Below, in pieces: positions 9,658 through 63,452 of a stretch of 64,000 nt of DNA. The number at the start of each line of letters is the position of its first letter. Position 1 is the stretch's first letter. Origin of the DNA: Zobellia uliginosa (GTDB lineage: Bacteria; Bacteroidota; Bacteroidia; Flavobacteriales; Flavobacteriaceae); contig NZ_JAHKPY010000003.1 in assembly GCF_018860745.1 (NCBI RefSeq), forward strand, positions 1,004,062 to 1,068,061. The letters run 5' to 3'. The translations under genes and the position numbers were made by a program. The notes under the pieces are model-generated. The model saw only the letters and a program-made list of their open reading frames with translations, was not told the origin of the DNA and made no database searches.

Positions 9658-10422
9658 TTACACTTTTTTTACATGCCGCAACTGACTTTTTAACTCTTCC
9701 ATAGATTCTTGTAATTGTCTAAGGAGCCCCTTTTCTGTAGTAGCATCTTCTCCAAAAGTAATTCTACTGCTTACCTCCCAAATCTCCTGAATTTGAAAAG
9801 GTTTGATATCATATGGGGGATATGTTTCATTAAGCGATACCAAAGTAACATTGTTGGAATTTGGTCTTCTCTCTACTTTCTTGACCAAAACAGCATCCTC
9901 CAGCACAACCACATACATTTTATTTTGACTCACATCATCAATATGTTCTACTGCCTTGGCCAAAACCCACTCACCAGATCTTAAATTGGGCAACATACTA
10001 TCTCCATCAACCTGAAAACCACGGTACGTAGCATTTCTAAATTCAGGAATGGGCAAATCAAAAGCAGGAAGTTGTTCGTACCAACTGGTATCCGCGATGT
10101 TCTGCGGATATCCTGCCGCTGCCTTAGCATTTACCAAGACCATATTATCGTTACCAGCATTATCTACGGTAACCACTTTAGGGATAACACTTACCTTGGA
10201 AGTTTCCAAATACTGGTTATCACTGTCACCAAACAGCCACAGCGGATTAATCTTGAACTGCTTTAAAAGCTCCATCACAACTTTACCTGAAAGTTTAGTA
10301 CGCCCACGTTCTATATCCGCAGTAGTACTGGATACGCCAAGAAGCTTGGCAAATTCTGCTTGAGTATAGCCCAACTCACGGCGAATATCGGTGAAGCGTT
10401 TTAAAGTAATTTCATTTTCCAT
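9658..10422 (-). CDS. LexA-like transcriptional repressor (XRE HTH + S24 peptidase)
   Basis: A 254-residue self-cleavable repressor. Residues 1-65 are an XRE-type helix-turn-helix (YTQAEFAKLLGVSSTTADIERG). Residues about 95-215 are an S24 (LexA/CI-like) peptidase with the scissile A103-G104 in KAAAGYPQ, nucleophile S142 in DGDSMLPN and general base K181 in VLVKKVE. Such proteins cleave themselves in response to RecA filaments or similar stress and release the operator. The C-terminal tail is helical and charged. The gene is divergent from the radical SAM/DUF4130 repair pair, and the 164-bp space between them contains operator-like dyads and a promoter for this gene. It is probably a local SOS-type switch; a phage repressor origin is possible, but no phage genes surround it. 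Confidence 0.9.
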   Translation of the reverse strand: MENEITLKRFTDIRRELGYTQAEFAKLLGVSSTTADIERGRTKLSGKVVMELLKQFKINPLWLFGDSDNQYLETSKVSVIPKVVTVDNAGNDNMVLVNAKAAAGYPQNIADTSWYEQLPAFDLPIPEFRNATYRGFQVDGDSMLPNLRSGEWVLAKAVEHIDDVSQNKMYVVVLEDAVLVKKVERRPNSNNVTLVSLNETYPPYDIKPFQIQEIWEVSSRITFGEDATTEKGLLRQLQESMEELKSQLRHVKKV

Positions 10423-10457
10423 ATAATTCTTGAATTATCTCTGTTGGTCAAAGCAAT

Positions 10458-10477
10458 TGTAGACATTGCTATCTACA
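10458..10477. promoter_or_regulatory. Inverted repeat TGTAGA-N8-TCTACA
   Basis: A perfect 6-bp dyad with an 8-base centre, 36-55 bp before the S24 repressor start. It falls just past the expected transcription start of the repressor promoter (-7 element at 10489-10496), where bound protein would block elongation. It differs from the TTTGGA dyads, so it may bind another regulator or be chance. Confidence 0.35.
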
Positions 10478-10488
10478 CTACCCATTTT

Positions 10489-10518
10489 CAAATATACATA
10501 ATTTGGACATAATCCAAA
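10489..10518 (-). promoter_or_regulatory. Bacteroidetes-type promoter for the S24 repressor
   Basis: On the minus strand TTTG (10518-10515) is followed after 18 bases by TATATTTG (10496-10489), close to the Bacteroidetes consensus TTTG-N19-TAnnTTTG. The predicted start lies near 10482, giving a leader of about 60 bases. The -33 element lies inside the first operator-like dyad (10502-10518), which fits autoregulation. Confidence 0.5.
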
Positions 10519-10559
10519 ATTTTATTTGGAAAATATCCATAATATGGAATTTTTCCATA
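10502..10559. promoter_or_regulatory. Three tandem operator-like dyads TTTGGA-N5-TCCAAA
   Basis: Three dyads of identical architecture: TTTGGA/TCCAAA at 10502-10518, TTTGGA/TCCATA at 10525-10541 and TATGGA/TCCATA at 10543-10559, each with a 5-base spacer. They lie between the divergent repressor and repair genes and overlap the repressor -33 element and the sequence just before the repair-gene -7 element. Inference: these are the binding sites of the S24 repressor. Confidence 0.5.
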
Positions 10560-10565
10560 AATTTG
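10558..10565 (+). promoter_or_regulatory. Candidate -7 element for the radical SAM repair operon
   Basis: TAAATTTG matches the Bacteroidetes -7 consensus TAnnTTTG and lies 21 bp before the radical SAM start codon, with a predicted start near 10572. No good TTTG is seen at the -33 distance. It abuts the third dyad, so repressor binding should block it. Confidence 0.35.
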
Positions 10566-10586
10566 GAATAAATACTAACACACAAC

Positions 10587-11855
10587 ATGTCAATATCTTT
10601 TGAAAGAATAAAGGAAAAATTGAATATACTCGCCGATGCAGCTAAGTACGATGTCTCGTGCTCAAGTAGCGGAAGTGTTCGTAAGAATAACTCCAACGGC
10701 CTAGGGGATAGTAGTGGTATGGGCATTTGCCATAGTTATACAGAAGATGGGAGATGCGTATCCCTATTAAAAATTTTACTGACCAATCATTGTATTTTTG
10801 ACTGTGCCTATTGCGTTACGCGAAAAAGTAATGATGTGCAGCGCGCGGCTTTTAAAATACAGGAGGTGGTGGATTTGACTATCAATTTCTATCGTAGAAA
10901 TTATATCGAAGGGCTTTTTCTCAGTTCTGGAATATTCAAAAGTCCGGATTACACCATGGAACGTTTGGTGGCAGTAGCCAAAAAATTAAGATTGGAAGAG
11001 AATTTTAATGGTTATATACATCTAAAATCAATTCCCGGGGCTAGCGATGAACTCATGCGAGAAGCAGGGCTGTACGCAGATAGATTGTCGGTTAATATTG
11101 AGGTTCCCACAATTTCCGGACTTAAACTGTTGGCGCCTGATAAAAAACATGAAGATTTCACCAAGCCGATGTTGAAGGTAAAAAATGAGATCATTCAGTA
11201 CAAATCCGAGAAAAAAATAATCAAAAGCACCCCCAAGTATGCTCCCGCCGGCCAAAGTACTCAAATGATTGTGGGAGCCACAGGAGAATCAGACAAGGAT
11301 ATTATGTACTCTGCCACGCATTATTACAAAAATTATAATATGAAGCGGGTATATTATTCTGGTTATGTACCTGTAGCAGAAGATAGCAGGCTACCTGCTA
11401 TTGGCACACGAGTTCCTATGCTTAGAGAGAATAGGTTATACCAAACAGATTGGCTATTAAGGTTTTACGGATTTGGGGTTCAGGAGATATTGAATAATGA
11501 CCACCCTAATTTGGATATGGATGTAGACCCTAAATTAGGATGGGCTTTGCGGAACATGGAATACTTCCCCATAGATATAAATAAGGCAGATAAGAATGTA
11601 CTTGCTCGTGTACCGGGGCTCGGAATGAAATCCGTTCAAAAAATTATTAGCGCAAGAAAGTATCGGAAGTTGAACTGGGAGCATCTAAAAAAGATTGGTG
11701 TTGCCTTAAATAGAGCTAAATACTTCATTGTTTGTGATTCTAGCAAGTGGGAACATAGGGACATGGAAGGGACTAAGATAAAAGGTTTGATTCTACAAAA
11801 TTCGGTTGGGAAATTCAGAAAAGAGTATAGCACTCAATTGCAATTATTTAGTTGA
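10587..11855 (+). CDS. Putative DNA modification/repair radical SAM protein (TIGR03916-like)
   Basis: A 422-residue radical SAM protein of the group linked to uracil-DNA-glycosylase-like genes. The [4Fe-4S] cluster cysteines are C69, C73 and C76 in CIFDCAYC, the CX3CX2C radical SAM signature. Near residues 335-365 is a helix-hairpin-helix-like segment (NVLARVPGLGMKSVQKII), a non-specific DNA-binding element. Together these suggest radical chemistry on damaged or modified DNA; the reaction is not known. The start ATG is well placed 15 bp after a predicted transcription start. It is followed by its usual partner, the DUF4130 protein, and lies opposite a LexA-like repressor, so damage induction is likely. 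Confidence 0.88.
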   Translation: MSISFERIKEKLNILADAAKYDVSCSSSGSVRKNNSNGLGDSSGMGICHSYTEDGRCVSLLKILLTNHCIFDCAYCVTRKSNDVQRAAFKIQEVVDLTINFYRRNYIEGLFLSSGIFKSPDYTMERLVAVAKKLRLEENFNGYIHLKSIPGASDELMREAGLYADRLSVNIEVPTISGLKLLAPDKKHEDFTKPMLKVKNEIIQYKSEKKIIKSTPKYAPAGQSTQMIVGATGESDKDIMYSATHYYKNYNMKRVYYSGYVPVAEDSRLPAIGTRVPMLRENRLYQTDWLLRFYGFGVQEILNNDHPNLDMDVDPKLGWALRNMEYFPIDINKADKNVLARVPGLGMKSVQKIISARKYRKLNWEHLKKIGVALNRAKYFIVCDSSKWEHRDMEGTKIKGLILQNSVGKFRKEYSTQLQLFS

Positions 11856-11902
11856 TCTGGGCATTTTGCCCAAAGCATGTGAACAAAATAAAACGGAGAA
11901 CT

Positions 11903-12676
11903 ATGAATACTTTAAAATCTTTAATTTACGACGGAAGTTTTAACGGATTTCTTACTGCCATTTTCGTGGCGTTCGATGAAAAAACAAGAGTGGCCGATAT
12001 TCAGAAAAAATCTGCCTCCCAAAGCGGACTTTTTTCGGAAACAGAGAGTATTTTCACTCAAATGGATAAAGCACAAAGAGTGTGGAACGGAATAGATAAG
12101 AAGAGTCATACGGCTATACAAGATATCTACTTCGCCTTTCTGAGCGAAACCAAAGGAGTTGAAATGTTGTTGTATAGCTATATCCGAAAAATGTTTGCAT
12201 CTACTAATTCTATTTCTTCGGATTTTTCAGATGGTACGGTGTTGAAAATTAGCCAGCTTGCTAGGTCTGTGGGAAGGGAAAAACACAGAATGGAGGCTTT
12301 TGTACGTTTTCAATTGACAAAAGATAATATTTATTTTGCCAATATAGAACCTGATTTTGATGTACTTCCTCTAATTTCTAAACATTTCAGATCAAGATAT
12401 GCAGATCAACAATGGCTTATTTATGATTTTAAACGTAAATATGGTATTTACTTTGATTTAAATAAAGTTGAAATCATAACCTTAGACCTTGATTCTGCTT
12501 ATACAAATAGTATAAACAAAAGTGTTCATTTTGGTGACGAAGAGTATAATTACCAGGATCTTTGGAACAATTACTTCAAAAGTACCAATATTAAATCGCG
12601 CATTAATTTGAAACTTCACAATCAGCATGTGCCCAAAAGATATTGGAAGTATTTAAGTGAGAAAAAAGCCGTGTAA
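11903..12676 (+). CDS. TIGR03915/DUF4130 family probable DNA repair protein
   Basis: A 257-residue protein that begins MNTLKSLIYDGSFNGFLTAIF, the characteristic opening (YDGSFxGFLTAxF) of the DUF4130 family found beside the radical SAM gene; some relatives are fused to a uracil-DNA-glycosylase-like domain. The ATG at 11903 is chosen over an in-frame TTG at 11852 that overlaps the radical SAM stop, because it has GGAG at 11895 and gives the family N-terminus. The C-terminal part contains DRQWLIYDFKRKYGIYFDL-like sequence typical of the family. No catalytic residues can be named. It is the second gene of the repressor-controlled pair. Confidence 0.85.
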   Translation: MNTLKSLIYDGSFNGFLTAIFVAFDEKTRVADIQKKSASQSGLFSETESIFTQMDKAQRVWNGIDKKSHTAIQDIYFAFLSETKGVEMLLYSYIRKMFASTNSISSDFSDGTVLKISQLARSVGREKHRMEAFVRFQLTKDNIYFANIEPDFDVLPLISKHFRSRYADQQWLIYDFKRKYGIYFDLNKVEIITLDLDSAYTNSINKSVHFGDEEYNYQDLWNNYFKSTNIKSRINLKLHNQHVPKRYWKYLSEKKAV

Positions 12677-12865: not shown

Positions 12866-15706
12866 ATGATAGATTACGAAGAAAATATTGAGGTTCAGGG
12901 CGCTCGTGTCCATAACCTCAAAAATATTGATGTTACCATACCAAGAGAAAAGTTAGTTGTGATTACCGGCCTCTCCGGTAGCGGCAAATCATCACTTGCT
13001 TTTGATACCATTTATGCTGAAGGCCAACGAAGGTACATTGAAACTTTTTCGGCCTATGCGAGGCAATTTTTAGGCGGACTTGAAAGACCAGATGTTGATA
13101 AGATTGATGGACTTTCGCCCGTTATTGCAATTGAACAGAAAACTACATCAAAATCTCCCCGTTCTACAGTAGGTACGATTACTGAAATTTATGATTTTCT
13201 TCGGTTGCTTTTTGCTCGAGCCGGAGATGCCTACAGTTACAATACAGGTGAGAAAATGGTAAGTTATAGTGATGAGCAAATTAAAGAACTCATCAAAAAG
13301 GATTACAACGGTAAAAAAATAAATATTCTCGCTCCGGTTATAAAATCCAGAAAAGGACATTATAGAGAGCTTTTTGAACAAATTGCGAAACAAGGTTTTG
13401 TAAAAGTCCGTATTGATGGTGAGGTTAAAGATATTATCAAGGGTATGAAAGTAGATCGCTACAAGACCCATGACATTGAGATAGTTATTGATCGCCTCAA
13501 AATTACCGATACGGAAGATATGGACAAGCGTCTTTCCGAATCTTTGCATACGGCCATGTATAGCGGAGACAATGTACTTATGGTTCTTGAAGAGGGGCAA
13601 TTCTTAGCGCGGTATTTTAGTCGCGATCTAATGTGCCCTACTACTGGCATTTCCTATCCGGTTCCAGAACCAAATACTTTTTCATTCAACTCTCCAAAAG
13701 GCATGTGCCCTAATTGTAATGGGCTAGGTCATGTTTATGAAGTAAATGAAAAGAAAATTTTTCCCGATAAAAAGCTTTCCATTAAAGCTGGTGGAATTGC
13801 TCCATTGGGCGATTACAAAAATTCTTGGGCGTTCAAACAAATAGAAACTATAGCAAAACGTTACGGATTTGAACTGACAGACCCCATTTCTAAAATTTCT
13901 GAGGAAGCAATTAATATTCTTCTCAATGGCGGACACGAGAGTTTTGAGGTGGATTCCAAGTCGTTAGGCGTAAAAAGAAATTATAAGATAGATTATGAAG
14001 GCATTGCCAACTTCATAAAAAATCAATATGAAGAGGCTGGTACAACGGCATTAAAGCGTTGGGCCAAAGAGTATATGGACAAGATTACCTGTCCTGTTTG
14101 TGAAGGCTCCAGACTGCGAAAAGAATCGCTAAACTTCAAGATTGATGAGAAAAACATAGCAGAACTGGCTCATTTGGATATAGCCGAACTTGCTCTTTTC
14201 TTTAATGGGTTAGAAAAGAGACTAGAAGGGAACCAGCTAAAGATAGCGGAGGAAATTATTAAGGAGATACGTACGCGCATTCAATTTCTTTTAGATGTTG
14301 GGTTAGATTATCTTTCTTTAAACAGAAGCTCTAAATCGTTATCCGGCGGAGAGGCACAGCGTATACGATTAGCAACCCAGATTGGCTCTCAATTGGTAGG
14401 TGTTCTCTATATTTTAGATGAACCGAGTATAGGGTTGCATCAACGAGATAATACCCGACTGATCAAATCCCTTGAAGCACTAAGGGATATTGGTAACTCT
14501 GTGATCGTTGTGGAACATGACCGGGATATGATCGAGTGTGCGGATCATGTTATAGATATTGGGCCAAGAGCCGGAAAACATGGCGGGGAAATCATCTCGC
14601 AAGGCGCTCCGAAAGATTTAAAAAAGGAACATACATTAACTGCCGATTATATCACGGGAAAGAAAGAAATAGCCGTGCCAGCAAAGCGAAGAAAAGGTAA
14701 TGGTAAAAAAATCACTCTTACTGGATGTACGGGAAACAACTTAAAGAATGTTTCTATCACCATTCCATTAGGTCAGATGATTGGTGTAACGGGGGTATCG
14801 GGCAGTGGCAAGTCTACATTAATAAATGAAACCCTCTACCCTATTATGAATGCTCATTATTTTAATGGCGTTAAAAAACCTATGCCCTATAAAAAGATAA
14901 CAGGGCTAGAACATATAGACAAAGTTATTGACATCAATCAATCGCCCATAGGTCGTACTCCAAGATCTAATCCTGCTACCTATACTGGTGTTTTTGGAGA
15001 GATACGAGCCTTGTTTTCCAAAACTCCCGAAGCGTCTATAAGAGGTTACAAGCCAGGGCGATTCAGTTTTAATGTTAAGGGAGGACGTTGTGAAACTTGC
15101 CAAGGTGGAGGTCTTAGGGTTATTGAAATGAACTTTTTACCGGATGTTTATGTGGAATGCGAAACTTGCAACGGCAAGCGCTTCAATAGAGAAACATTAG
15201 AAATTAGGTACAAGGGGAAATCAATAGCAGATGTTTTGGAAATGACCATCAATGAAGCAGTAGACTTTTTTGAGCTTATTCCAAAAATATATCGTAAACT
15301 AAAAACGATCCAGGATGTTGGGCTAGGTTATATTTCCTTAGGACAACAGTCCACCACACTTTCAGGAGGGGAAGCGCAGCGTATTAAGCTGGCAACAGAA
15401 TTATCCAAACGAGATACCGGTAACACTTTTTATATTTTGGATGAACCCACAACAGGGCTTCATTTTGAAGATATTCGCGTTTTAATGGAAGTTTTGACCC
15501 GTTTAGTAGACAAAGGAAATACCATATTGGTCATTGAACACAATATGGATGTAATAAAAATGGTAGATTACATTATTGATATTGGTTATGAAGGCGGCCG
15601 TGGCGGCGGTAAAGTAGTGGCCAAGGGAACGCCAGAGCAAATAGCTCAGGATAAAAAGAGCTATACTGCCAAATACCTAAGATCAGAATTAAATATACCA
15701 GACTAG
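12866..15706 (+). CDS. uvrA: Excinuclease ABC subunit A
   Basis: UvrA, 946 residues, the damage-sensing ATPase of nucleotide excision repair. Two ABC modules are visible: the first Walker A is GLSGSGKSS near residues 35-43, the second GVSGSGKST near 643-651, with signature motifs [12 protein letters not shown] and [12 protein letters not shown]. Zinc-binding cysteine pairs [16 protein letters not shown], and CETCQGGG with CETCNGKR are all in place. Length is normal for the family. It stands alone with a 189-bp upstream gap, downstream of the other DNA-repair pair; no TTTGGA dyad was seen in its leader, so the S24 repressor probably does not control it. Confidence 0.98.
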
Positions 15707-62100: not shown

Positions 62101-63452
62101 TACATATATCCGTCAGAATCTGTAAAAAACGAGGAAATACCATCTTTACTGCCTTCTCCATCTATAGGTACATTCATTAAATAACTAGCGGATCCTGTGT
62201 TTTGCCCTGTTTTTGTAAGTGTCCACACCTCTTGTGTCTCATGATCCCCAAATACATACTTGCCTTTTAATTCAGGGTAACGCTCGCCTCTATAAACCAT
62301 ACCGCCAATAACCGCTCTTCCAACAGATCTACCATAGCTATAAAGTGGGGGGCTGTCATTTCCAATAAGTGGGCTTGGCATTTCCGCTTTTCCGTCCTGG
62401 TCACCCTCACGATAAGGCCATTGCAAATTATCTCCTTTTCTAACTATGCTTACTTCTTCTTTTGAACCTTGACCTATATCGCCCACCCAAATATCACCTG
62501 TTACCGGGTCTAGGCTCATACGGTGTGGACTTCGCGTTCCTATGGCATAAAACTCTTCAAGATTGTCACCGCTTGAATCCACCCATGGATTATCGTTAGG
62601 TATATAGTAACCTTGTGTAAAGGAATCTGGCCACCCTGCCGGCGGCACTCCTGCATTAAGAGGCTGTTTTTTTATGGGATGACTGACTTCTCCACCCCTT
62701 TTATCTACATCAATACGCAATACCCCACCAAATAAATATTTATCTATTTGTTGAGTTACATTATAACTGTCATATGCGGCACCTTCATCACCAACTGCTA
62801 GGTATAAGAACTTGTCTTCAGGCCCAAAAAACATATCTCCACCATTATGCCAATCATGACGGTCAAAAATATTTATGAGAACTTCTTCACTAGAGGGGTT
62901 GATAGCGTTTGCTCCAATGGGCAGAGTAAATCTTGAAAGACGCATATATCCATCAACCGCAGGATTAACTCTATCCGTTCCCTGAATAGGCGTGTATCTA
63001 TAAAAAACATAAATATATTCTGCATTAGGAGAATCGGTCTGACCATATTCTGGATGCAGGACTATACCCAACATGCCACCATCCGCATAATTAACGACAT
63101 TATCAGAGATGTCTAGAAGTAACTGCTTAGAGCTGGTTTGGGCATTATTGGAAATTTTCCATATATGACCCTGTAATCCCAAAACTAAGAATTCATTCCC
63201 CCCGGGTAATTCTTCCATATCCACAGGATCAACAAAAGTCAGGTTAGGGAAAGCATTCGTTACGCTATAACTCGCATTAATATCTACGGTACCGGCAGGA
63301 GTTGAAGATGGAAAAACCCCGTTAAGATAAGCTCCTATCGGAACAGCATTTTTTAGTCCGGGCCCATAAAGAAAGGGTACAAAGGAAAAAGCTAGAAAGG
63401 TGGTGATAAAAAGGCATACCACACCTATCTTTTTTTGGTAGTTGGTTTTCAT
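59172..63452 (-). CDS. Secreted multidomain diheme protein: sugar-dehydrogenase-like propeller, ricin-type lectin, three repeats, T9SS sorting domain
   Basis: A 1426-residue secreted protein. After a signal peptide (about residues 1-30), residues about 55-475 are a PQQ-dependent sugar-dehydrogenase-like six-bladed propeller with HNGGDMFFGPEDKFLYLAVGDEG in part. Residues about 480-800 match the HNE_0200/TIGR03806 type with two heme motifs, CMQCH (about 631) and CAYCH (about 709). A ricin-type beta-trefoil lies at 811-944 with QHQLWYF and NQKWKLEP. Three H-lectin-like repeats occupy about 955-1215. A fibronectin-like part and a type IX C-terminal sorting domain (NVMLFPNPID...GVYILKV) end it. 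It probably oxidises a bound sugar or alcohol on the cell surface and passes electrons to the hemes (inference). Confidence 0.85.
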   Translation of the reverse strand: MKTNYQKKIGVVCLFITTFLAFSFVPFLYGPGLKNAVPIGAYLNGVFPSSTPAGTVDINASYSVTNAFPNLTFVDPVDMEELPGGNEFLVLGLQGHIWKISNNAQTSSKQLLLDISDNVVNYADGGMLGIVLHPEYGQTDSPNAEYIYVFYRYTPIQGTDRVNPAVDGYMRLSRFTLPIGANAINPSSEEVLINIFDRHDWHNGGDMFFGPEDKFLYLAVGDEGAAYDSYNVTQQIDKYLFGGVLRIDVDKRGGEVSHPIKKQPLNAGVPPAGWPDSFTQGYYIPNDNPWVDSSGDNLEEFYAIGTRSPHRMSLDPVTGDIWVGDIGQGSKEEVSIVRKGDNLQWPYREGDQDGKAEMPSPLIGNDSPPLYSYGRSVGRAVIGGMVYRGERYPELKGKYVFGDHETQEVWTLTKTGQNTGSASYLMNVPIDGEGSKDGISSFFTDSDGYMYILDLFGTAQDGGVIHKVVRSGTVSDPPIKLSSLNVFSDLESLTPVAGIVPYDVNTPLWSDGAEKQRWIALPNDGEHNSAAEQIVFQNEENWSFPPGTVVIKQFNLPIDENDSTKIIKLETRFLVFNENNNAYAVTYKWNDEQTDAVLVGLDESISQKYQVKKKDGSVVEQTWDFPTRNQCMQCHNSVAGYSLGLKTRQLNKNFTYPSTGITGNQLETWSHLNMFTNDIPSHVKLPASAHINSEKASDVMKVRSYMDANCAYCHRPNGVEGAFDGRAMTALYDQYLINQDVESHASIPGNKIVKPKDVINSTLYVRDASNSDDRMPPIGRNMLDEDYLEILTGWIDGLDVNGPISVENGWYNLKMGNLEKYLAIEDASLLTNARAINSISNVGDDRKWYVEEMGGGKYRIKALHSDMVLSLRTLKAERGSNVVQEMWDGSQHQLWYFEDIDGENLRIVSAYNGLALHISKGTTENDRPGVTWTSSNSANQKWKLEPVSKETEVSAIGETGKVEANHNWATVKLNRNYKNPVVIAGAPTYEGSNQATVRVKDVTSSSFRVRIDEWECWDESHLFETIPYIVVEAGVHELVNGKLLQAGNIEGRDHQWYRQRFNRSFNEEPLVFGQCVTENEAEAVNVFFDERYSNTNQLRLKLKERDNAIGGHKPEIVSWLAVEPGTLTEGDSSFEMINSGRTVNHNWHTLNFSQNYDDNALFIGGLGSEYGGNAASLRYKELKGTDVRVFVEEEICGDVEIAHTNEEVHYMVFGSEVDVMGKTYEESSNTVALKSNELLSDFFFEKVFSENESHVVNIKWTVNNDIGIETFSIEKSVNGDNFRFVTDQPGVRSIGHNNYNGYDYSPIIGSAVYRIAAITVEGKTVYSDEIKVDFKNPGNNVMLFPNPIDRSKTLTADILLVDGEENEEDLTLSIFTIEGRFIRSWTKLMDCQQSFEQLATDDLGTGVYILKVQGKKWSQTRKFIVR

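Follow-up and report, generated by a model that had tools for sequence, protein, structure and literature searches.

The closest described relatives of the system considered here are non-canonical LexA repressors of Bacteroidetes, one group of which recognizes GGA-N5-TCC and comes mainly from Flavobacteriaceae (PMC8565304). In the accessible text of that report the member of the group from S. agarivorans acts as a global SOS repressor inducible by mitomycin: it binds GGA-N5-TCC, mitomycin C induces its predicted targets except recA, its cleavage is argued from residues, and the regulon inferred for the group includes an operon labeled COG1573-COG4277. The locus that we analyzed lies in Zobellia uliginosa, in a stretch of 64,000 nucleotides (RefSeq assembly GCF_018860745.1, contig NZ_JAHKPY010000003.1, positions 1,004,062 to 1,068,061; hereafter the window), where a gene for a LexA-like repressor is divergent from two adjacent genes coding for a radical SAM protein (TIGR03916) and a DUF4130 protein (TIGR03915; Table 1). 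A first-pass annotation of the window had described this arrangement as a private, damage-sensing switch for a predicted but chemically undefined DNA-repair pair; since the switch and the place of the operon in the SOS regulon are already published, the finding in that form is largely known. Comparison across relatives brings out a further point, namely that, of the two genes in the pair, the one for DUF4130 is the steadier neighbor of lexA. Our searches, which covered one open library, found neither this nor the lone state of DUF4130 in print, and the accessible text of PMC8565304 describes none of the fixed array of three operators, the lone state of DUF4130 and the pattern of its tail presented below; the main text of that paper does not name Zobellia or Maribacter.

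Among 80 close named relatives (the best 80 of 403 confirmed), the genes divergent from lexA are radical SAM plus DUF4130 in 65, DUF4130 alone in 14 and neither in one (L098). TIGR03916 was detected in none of the 13 searched genomes of the 14 lone cases, the genome of L149 lying outside the search, and in all five paired controls; TIGR03915 was present in all 19 genomes searched from this set. Six of the 14 lone cases (L082, L114, L117, L118, L146 and L149) come from isolate-type records, i.e. those bearing neither "MAG" nor "uncultured". The same asymmetry is seen in a sample of 249 genomes of the family, with TIGR03915 in 106 (above cut-off in 100; the radical SAM gene is absent from all of the other six) and TIGR03916 in 79: DUF4130 occurs without the radical SAM gene in 27 of the 106, and the radical SAM gene occurs without DUF4130 in none of the 79. 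All 27 lone-type DUF4130 copies examined, a set distinct from the 27 genomes in that it comprises copies from 26 of them and a second copy in G242, are divergent from lexA, with 143-454 bp between match ends. In a phylum-level sample of 296 genomes both families were found in 90 (three of the radical SAM matches being partial), DUF4130 only in G067 and G316, and radical SAM only in G309 and G400, both at contig ends; TIGR03916 matches below the cut-off, nearly all at the HHH end, were excluded from these counts. The 27 of 106 DUF4130 genomes without a radical SAM gene speak against an obligate radical SAM-DUF4130 pair.

Some individual loci depart from these arrangements. In Maribacter sp. ACAM166 (L098 and L159/L169) the cassette is missing beside lexA, and the matches to the pair lie on another contig with an in-frame TAG in each. 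G242 combines a lone-type DUF4130 gene beside lexA (L204) with a complete pair 2.8 Mb off (L206). G148, which is among the 27 radical-SAM-less genomes, gave just a 45-aa DUF4130 match, and the only DUF4130 remnant found there is a 70-aa frame ending near RYWKYL (L218).

Phylogenetic analysis bears on whether the lone state arose once. Eight changes are needed to account for the 14 lone proteins on the DUF4130 tree, at least five of them forced by starred branches; on the LexA tree the 14 lone cases require 12, at least eight forced; and a tree with 38 lone proteins requires eight, at least six forced. These 38 distinct proteins, the lone set used below, consist of 36 from searched radical-SAM-less genomes together with L149 and L204. 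Trees in which the 14 lone cases were held as one clade were rejected by the approximately unbiased (AU) test, with p-AU of 2.4e-39 for DUF4130 and 3.2e-40 for LexA. Hence, the loss of the radical SAM gene is recurrent, and descent of the lone genes from one old lineage is rejected, with the long branches on which the lone DUF4130 proteins lie being a caution.

The lone proteins differ from the paired ones in particular segments. A C-terminal motif, [RK][YF]WxxLxEK, is present in all 66 lexA-linked paired proteins versus two of the 38 lone ones, and thus tracks the radical SAM partner. It recurs in 11 of a further 12 proteins of the family whose genomes contain a radical SAM gene, or nine of ten without repeats (L212 = L107 and L217 = L093), the miss being L209 which reads KRYWQYLPEV, and in all 13 pairs counted from the phylum sample, a count that excludes L219 (no radical SAM gene), L230 (genes on different contigs) and L234 (cut by a contig end). 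L230, from G455, keeps the motif, and L219, from a radical-SAM-less genome of another class, has lost it. We scored retention in the 38 lone proteins over 99 columns conserved in at least 97% of the 66 paired proteins, which gave means of 0.87 for residues 1-60, 0.77 for 61-113, 0.52 for 114-135, 0.68 for 136-164, 0.40 for 165-169, 0.87 for 170-200 and 0.32 for 201-257. From this pattern of decay we infer, as its simplest reading, that the radical SAM enzyme docks on the DUF4130 tail.

Beyond this motif the protein of the window ends in Ala-Val. Of the 38 lone proteins 33 have Ala at position -2 and 31 have Val or Ala at -1, and positions -5 to -38, aligned without gaps, agree with the paired consensus in about one fifth. 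The lone ends use all four Ala and all four Val codons, and their tails extend 21 to 77 aa past a core landmark, so that selection seems to act at the level of the protein. The ends of other frames served as controls: among 136 that are at least 150 aa long (window and L017-L049) AV or AA does not occur, and among 859 that are at least 200 aa long (the 80 loci and the window) it occurs in 23, mostly from one look-alike family. That Ala-Val/Ala outlasts the decay of the tail in most lone proteins suggests a C-terminal signal. In E. coli the ssrA-tag variant AAV directs degradation by ClpXP (PMC9382460), and the C-terminal Ala-Val/Ala-Ala seen here, on a predicted SOS-induced protein, is like such degrons (LAA/AAV); the simplest reading of the signal is perhaps a degron. 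Unlike the established ssrA-type degrons, as they appear in the accessible text of PMC9382460, the resemblance here is of the last residues alone and is known from sequence. The Ala-Val claim is limited to the clade with close LexA relatives and is not one of a universal signal. In L078 and L084 the radical SAM protein itself has a C-terminal Ala-Val (MAV and KAV, respectively).

By its sequence features the repressor is a member of the published Bacteroidetes non-canonical LexA family, and within it of the GGA-N5-TCC group (PMC8565304). Its Pfam matches are HTH_3 (PF01381, 35 bits), HTH_19, HTH_31 and Peptidase_S24 (PF00717, 51.4 bits), with PF01381 and PF00717 both above gathering scores; PF01726, the winged-helix DNA-binding domain of LexA, is not among them, and identity as a canonical LexA, which requires that domain, was rejected. 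The cleavage-site and dyad residues named in the first-pass annotation (A103-G104, S142 and K181) are as stated, and are invariant in 81 of 81 aligned orthologs, the window counted. The closest named repressor is that of Z. barbeyronii (99% identity). Like the group of PMC8565304, to go by its accessible text, the repressor combines HTH_3 and S24 domains with the Ala-Gly and Ser-Lys residues and GGA-N5-TCC sites in its own promoter; the motif also precedes other SOS genes, and the published regulon, with dinB, splB-like and COG1573-COG4277 genes, matches what is seen here. These parallels make SOS control of the locus via LexA very likely. The neighbors had likewise been read correctly: the C69/C73/C76 cysteines are present in the radical SAM protein, which scores 675.9 bits against TIGR03916 (cut-off 343.5), and the gene downstream of it is identified by 279.3 bits against TIGR03915 (cut-off 112.25), so that the divergence of this pair from the repressor is confirmed. 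As elsewhere, the two genes of the TIGR03916/TIGR03915 pair are adjacent here and both proteins lie far above the curated cut-offs; the difference lies in the many relatives in which the radical SAM gene is missing, and in that no uracil-glycosylase domain was found in the scanned DUF4130 proteins. For the DUF4130 gene we prefer the ATG at 11903 over a TTG at 11852 because relatives begin there.

The operator-like DNA that had been noticed between the divergent genes resolves into three GGA-N5-TCC palindromes, O1 to O3. With the domains and residues given above, these bear out a LexA-like repressor of the self-cleaving type whose operators are common to the pair. Because TAnnTTTG is the flavobacterial -7 box (PMC9723704), O1 is placed inside the lexA promoter and, on the divergent side, O3 is in contact with the -7 box of the radical SAM promoter; no clear TTG was seen upstream of the latter box at the usual distance. 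The motif WTGGAN5TCCAW has four matches in the window, three of them in this intergenic region, compared to a mean of 0.51 in shuffles, none of 100 of which reached four; when the intergenic region was shuffled by single bases 100,000 times, one site arose in 40 of the shuffles and two or more in none. The fourth perfect site (63148-63162) falls within a mechanical reading frame and is probably due to chance. An alignment of ten loci (the window, eight genomes of the same genus and G018) shows more variable DNA around the palindromes and the TAnnTTTG boxes that flank them; all three operators are kept in nine, O3 being broken in L052. Of the 65 paired loci, 60 have the triplet with start-to-start distances of 18 and 22-23 bp, as do L098 and 30 of the 38 lone-type loci. 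In 77 of the 80 loci a lexA -7 box is no more than 60 bp from the start of the lexA-proximal operator, the offset being 21 in 73, and an operator-side TAnnTTTG occurs on the radical SAM strand in 62 of 66 loci (the 65 paired ones and L098) and in all 14 lone loci of the 80-locus set.

Table 1. Features of the lexA-radical SAM-DUF4130 locus, in coordinates of the window
Feature	Position	Strand	Basis or remark
Non-canonical LexA repressor, 254 aa	9658..10422	-	HTH_3 and S24 peptidase; scissile A103-G104, dyad S142/K181
lexA -7 box TATATTTG (TAnnTTTG consensus)	10489..10496	-	TTG 18 bp upstream, 10517-10515
Operator O1 TTGGACATAATCCAA, inside lexA promoter	10503..10517	.	GGA-N5-TCC palindrome
Operator O2 TTGGAAAATATCCAT	10526..10540	.	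GGA-N5-TCC palindrome
Operator O3 ATGGAATTTTTCCAT, abutting radical SAM -7 box	10544..10558	.	GGA-N5-TCC palindrome
Radical SAM -7 box TAAATTTG	10558..10565	+	21 bp ahead of ATG
Radical SAM protein, TIGR03916	10587..11855	+	CxxxCxxC and HHH_3 motif (27.9 bits, cut-off 27)
DUF4130/TIGR03915 protein, 257 aa	11903..12676	+	Profile match over cut-off
RYWKYLSEK, DUF4130 residues 246-254	12638..12664	+	Motif tracking radical SAM gene presence
DUF4130 C-terminal Ala-Val, candidate C-terminal signal	12668..12673	+	Retention in lone proteins

The best explanation of these observations, one that we regard as probable on the comparative evidence, is a LexA-switched lexA-DUF4130 unit with a tail-dependent radical SAM partner and an Ala-Val/Ala signal. 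In such a mechanism the repressor would shut its own promoter via O1 and the divergent radical SAM-DUF4130 promoter via O2 and O3; RecA filaments on damaged DNA would bring about its self-cleavage at A103-G104, and this cleavage would lead to expression of both divergent units. The parts, the operators and their conservation come from the present analysis; binding and mitomycin induction are known from the relative described in the accessible text of PMC8565304. The lexA-DUF4130 arrangement would be the steady unit under the switch, with the DUF4130 core serving an independent function; that DUF4130 has such a function appears likely. The radical SAM enzyme would depend on DUF4130, most likely through the [RK][YF]WxxLxEK tail and parts of 114-135, which would decay once its gene is lost. 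The Ala-Val/Ala end, frequent in the clade with close LexA relatives, would be under selection in the lone proteins and is a plausible ClpXP-type degron. A more specific version is possible but doubtful at present: DUF4130 might be a sufficient SOS-induced unit, to which a dispensable radical SAM enzyme docks at, or modifies, the tail, and whose life the Ala-Val/Ala degron shortens in the close-LexA clade. The lone-DUF4130 lineages are a natural experiment, several times repeated, on an enzyme pair whose chemistry, in line with the first-pass annotation, we found nowhere assigned in the literature. They separate a possible solo role of DUF4130 from a radical-SAM-dependent one and name residues to mutate; if the more specific version is true, the repeated loss of the enzyme marks the interface with its partner residue by residue. 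A further outcome of the scans is a candidate degron, carried by a protein predicted to belong to the SOS response.

Several observations weigh against this explanation. A number of the lone genomes are metagenome bins, where the absence of the radical SAM gene can reflect incompleteness; within the lone set, moreover, the genome of L204 (G242) also has a full pair and that of L149 lay outside the search. The first-pass annotation had called for a survey of whether the repressor accompanies the pair. Among the 79 radical-SAM genomes of the family sample a repressor of at least 47% identity is present in 57 and is adjacent to and divergent from the pair in 42; 18 have only a homolog of 30-38% identity, never adjacent, and four have none, so that 37 of the 79 pairs are not LexA-adjacent. 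Eight unlinked pairs were examined for an operator in the 300 bp upstream of the radical SAM start, and six lack one. L125 and L140 are lone and yet have the full tail motif, remnants of which persist in L131, L148, L149 and L183; L125 and L140 stand beside paired relatives in the tree, fitting a recent loss. V123, K127 and E131 are retained within the decaying 114-135 segment. The AV end is found in only 44 of the 65 paired proteins, and is lacking in seven unlinked pairs, in the lexA-linked L215 and L216 with a more distant LexA, and in the lone-type L203-L205.

Could the lone DUF4130 genes instead be still-open relics of a broken pair? Their long branches, the decay of the tail, the 45-aa remnant match in G148 and the Maribacter sp. 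ACAM166 pair with its in-frame TAG codons would all be expected of relics. On the other hand, each of the 38 distinct lone proteins, translated up to its first stop codon, has a frame of 200-310 aa, 24 residues are retained in at least 90% of them, and the operators and promoter box are kept. Ratios of nonsynonymous to synonymous divergence (dN/dS) point in the same direction: they are 0.064-0.148 for the six computable of nine lone pairs, and 0.036-0.160 over residues 1-195 as against 0.19-0.38 beyond 195 (five pairs each), with 0.022-0.049 between paired proteins (nine computable of ten comparisons). In most lone pairs synonymous divergence (dS) comes close to saturation or passes it, and three of the nine were not computable, a further point against the favored explanation. 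The lone copies look to be under selection where testable, and we consider relics unlikely. We hold it to be similarly improbable that the enzyme modifies the DUF4130 tail as a form of protein maturation, rather than acting jointly with DUF4130 on DNA. This would suit the absence of any radical SAM gene without DUF4130 among 79 genomes and the keeping of the aromatic motif together with the enzyme, even with the genes on different contigs (L230). However, docking accounts for the same data, the HHH_3 motif of the enzyme, although just above its cut-off, suggests DNA, and a Trp-Lys crosslink is weakened because the residue following the Trp varies (K, N, H, P or Q). A separate peculiarity of this region is seen between the DUF4130 genes of L148 and L149, where synonymous divergence from codon 196 to the end is 0.10 versus 1.25 in the core, perhaps due to recombination or a constraint at the DNA level.

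Returning to the favored LexA-switched unit, two further alternatives concern what the pair does and how exclusively it is controlled. The COG1573-COG4277 label in PMC8565304 would make the pair a uracil-DNA glycosylase base-excision system, and PMC3765255, in its accessible part, also ties DUF4130 to uracil glycosylases. No uracil-DNA glycosylase is among the 17 Pfam families matched by 42 DUF4130 proteins (E up to 1), and a sequence search of solved structures, again with E up to 1, gave no DUF4130 relative, results with which an unseen activity would still be compatible. These scans lend no support to this reading of the pair in Flavobacteriaceae, and we judge it quite unlikely. As for control, the claim of a "private" repressor did not hold up. 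A genome-wide search for WTGGAN5TCCAW yielded 34 perfect sites and the mirror control also 34, an equality that itself tells against our explanation; we therefore dropped raw motif counts as evidence, and only placement marks likely sites (the survey covers perfect sites). On placement seven sites were kept: three at lexA/radical SAM, one before dinB, two between a Y-family polymerase operon and a divergent exonuclease gene, and one before a SplB-like gene, which is a radical SAM gene of the PA0069 family. Of the 27 dropped, 25 fall within mechanical reading frames with a minimum length of 60 aa, some of these frames possibly spurious, and two are intergenic in unfavorable positions (C12:118675, at a distance of 209 bp from a gene resembling apt by eye, and C10:685087, downstream of its neighbor). 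Given these placements before other SOS genes and the single copy of a repressor of this type in the 4.86 Mb genome, the repressor is most likely global rather than private. That the pair is divergent from it in 65 of the 80 close relatives, and likewise in 42 of the 79 family genomes with a radical SAM gene, speaks for a local switch serving the cassette alone; set against the other intergenic sites, the single copy and the global SOS role published for a relative (accessible text of PMC8565304), such a switch seems very unlikely.

The gene following DUF4130 in the window is uvrA, at 12866, which was found within the flank in 50 of the 80 relatives, some of them on short contigs. Elsewhere in the genome, at the Y-family polymerase locus (L017:1048-2950, G000 contig C1), the double operator occupies 2512-2545, between a 95-aa gene plus the polymerase and a 120-aa exonuclease that covers only part of RNase_T. 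This polymerase has SSIHSFY where the dinB product of L026 has SSIDEFY, and is perhaps catalytically dead.

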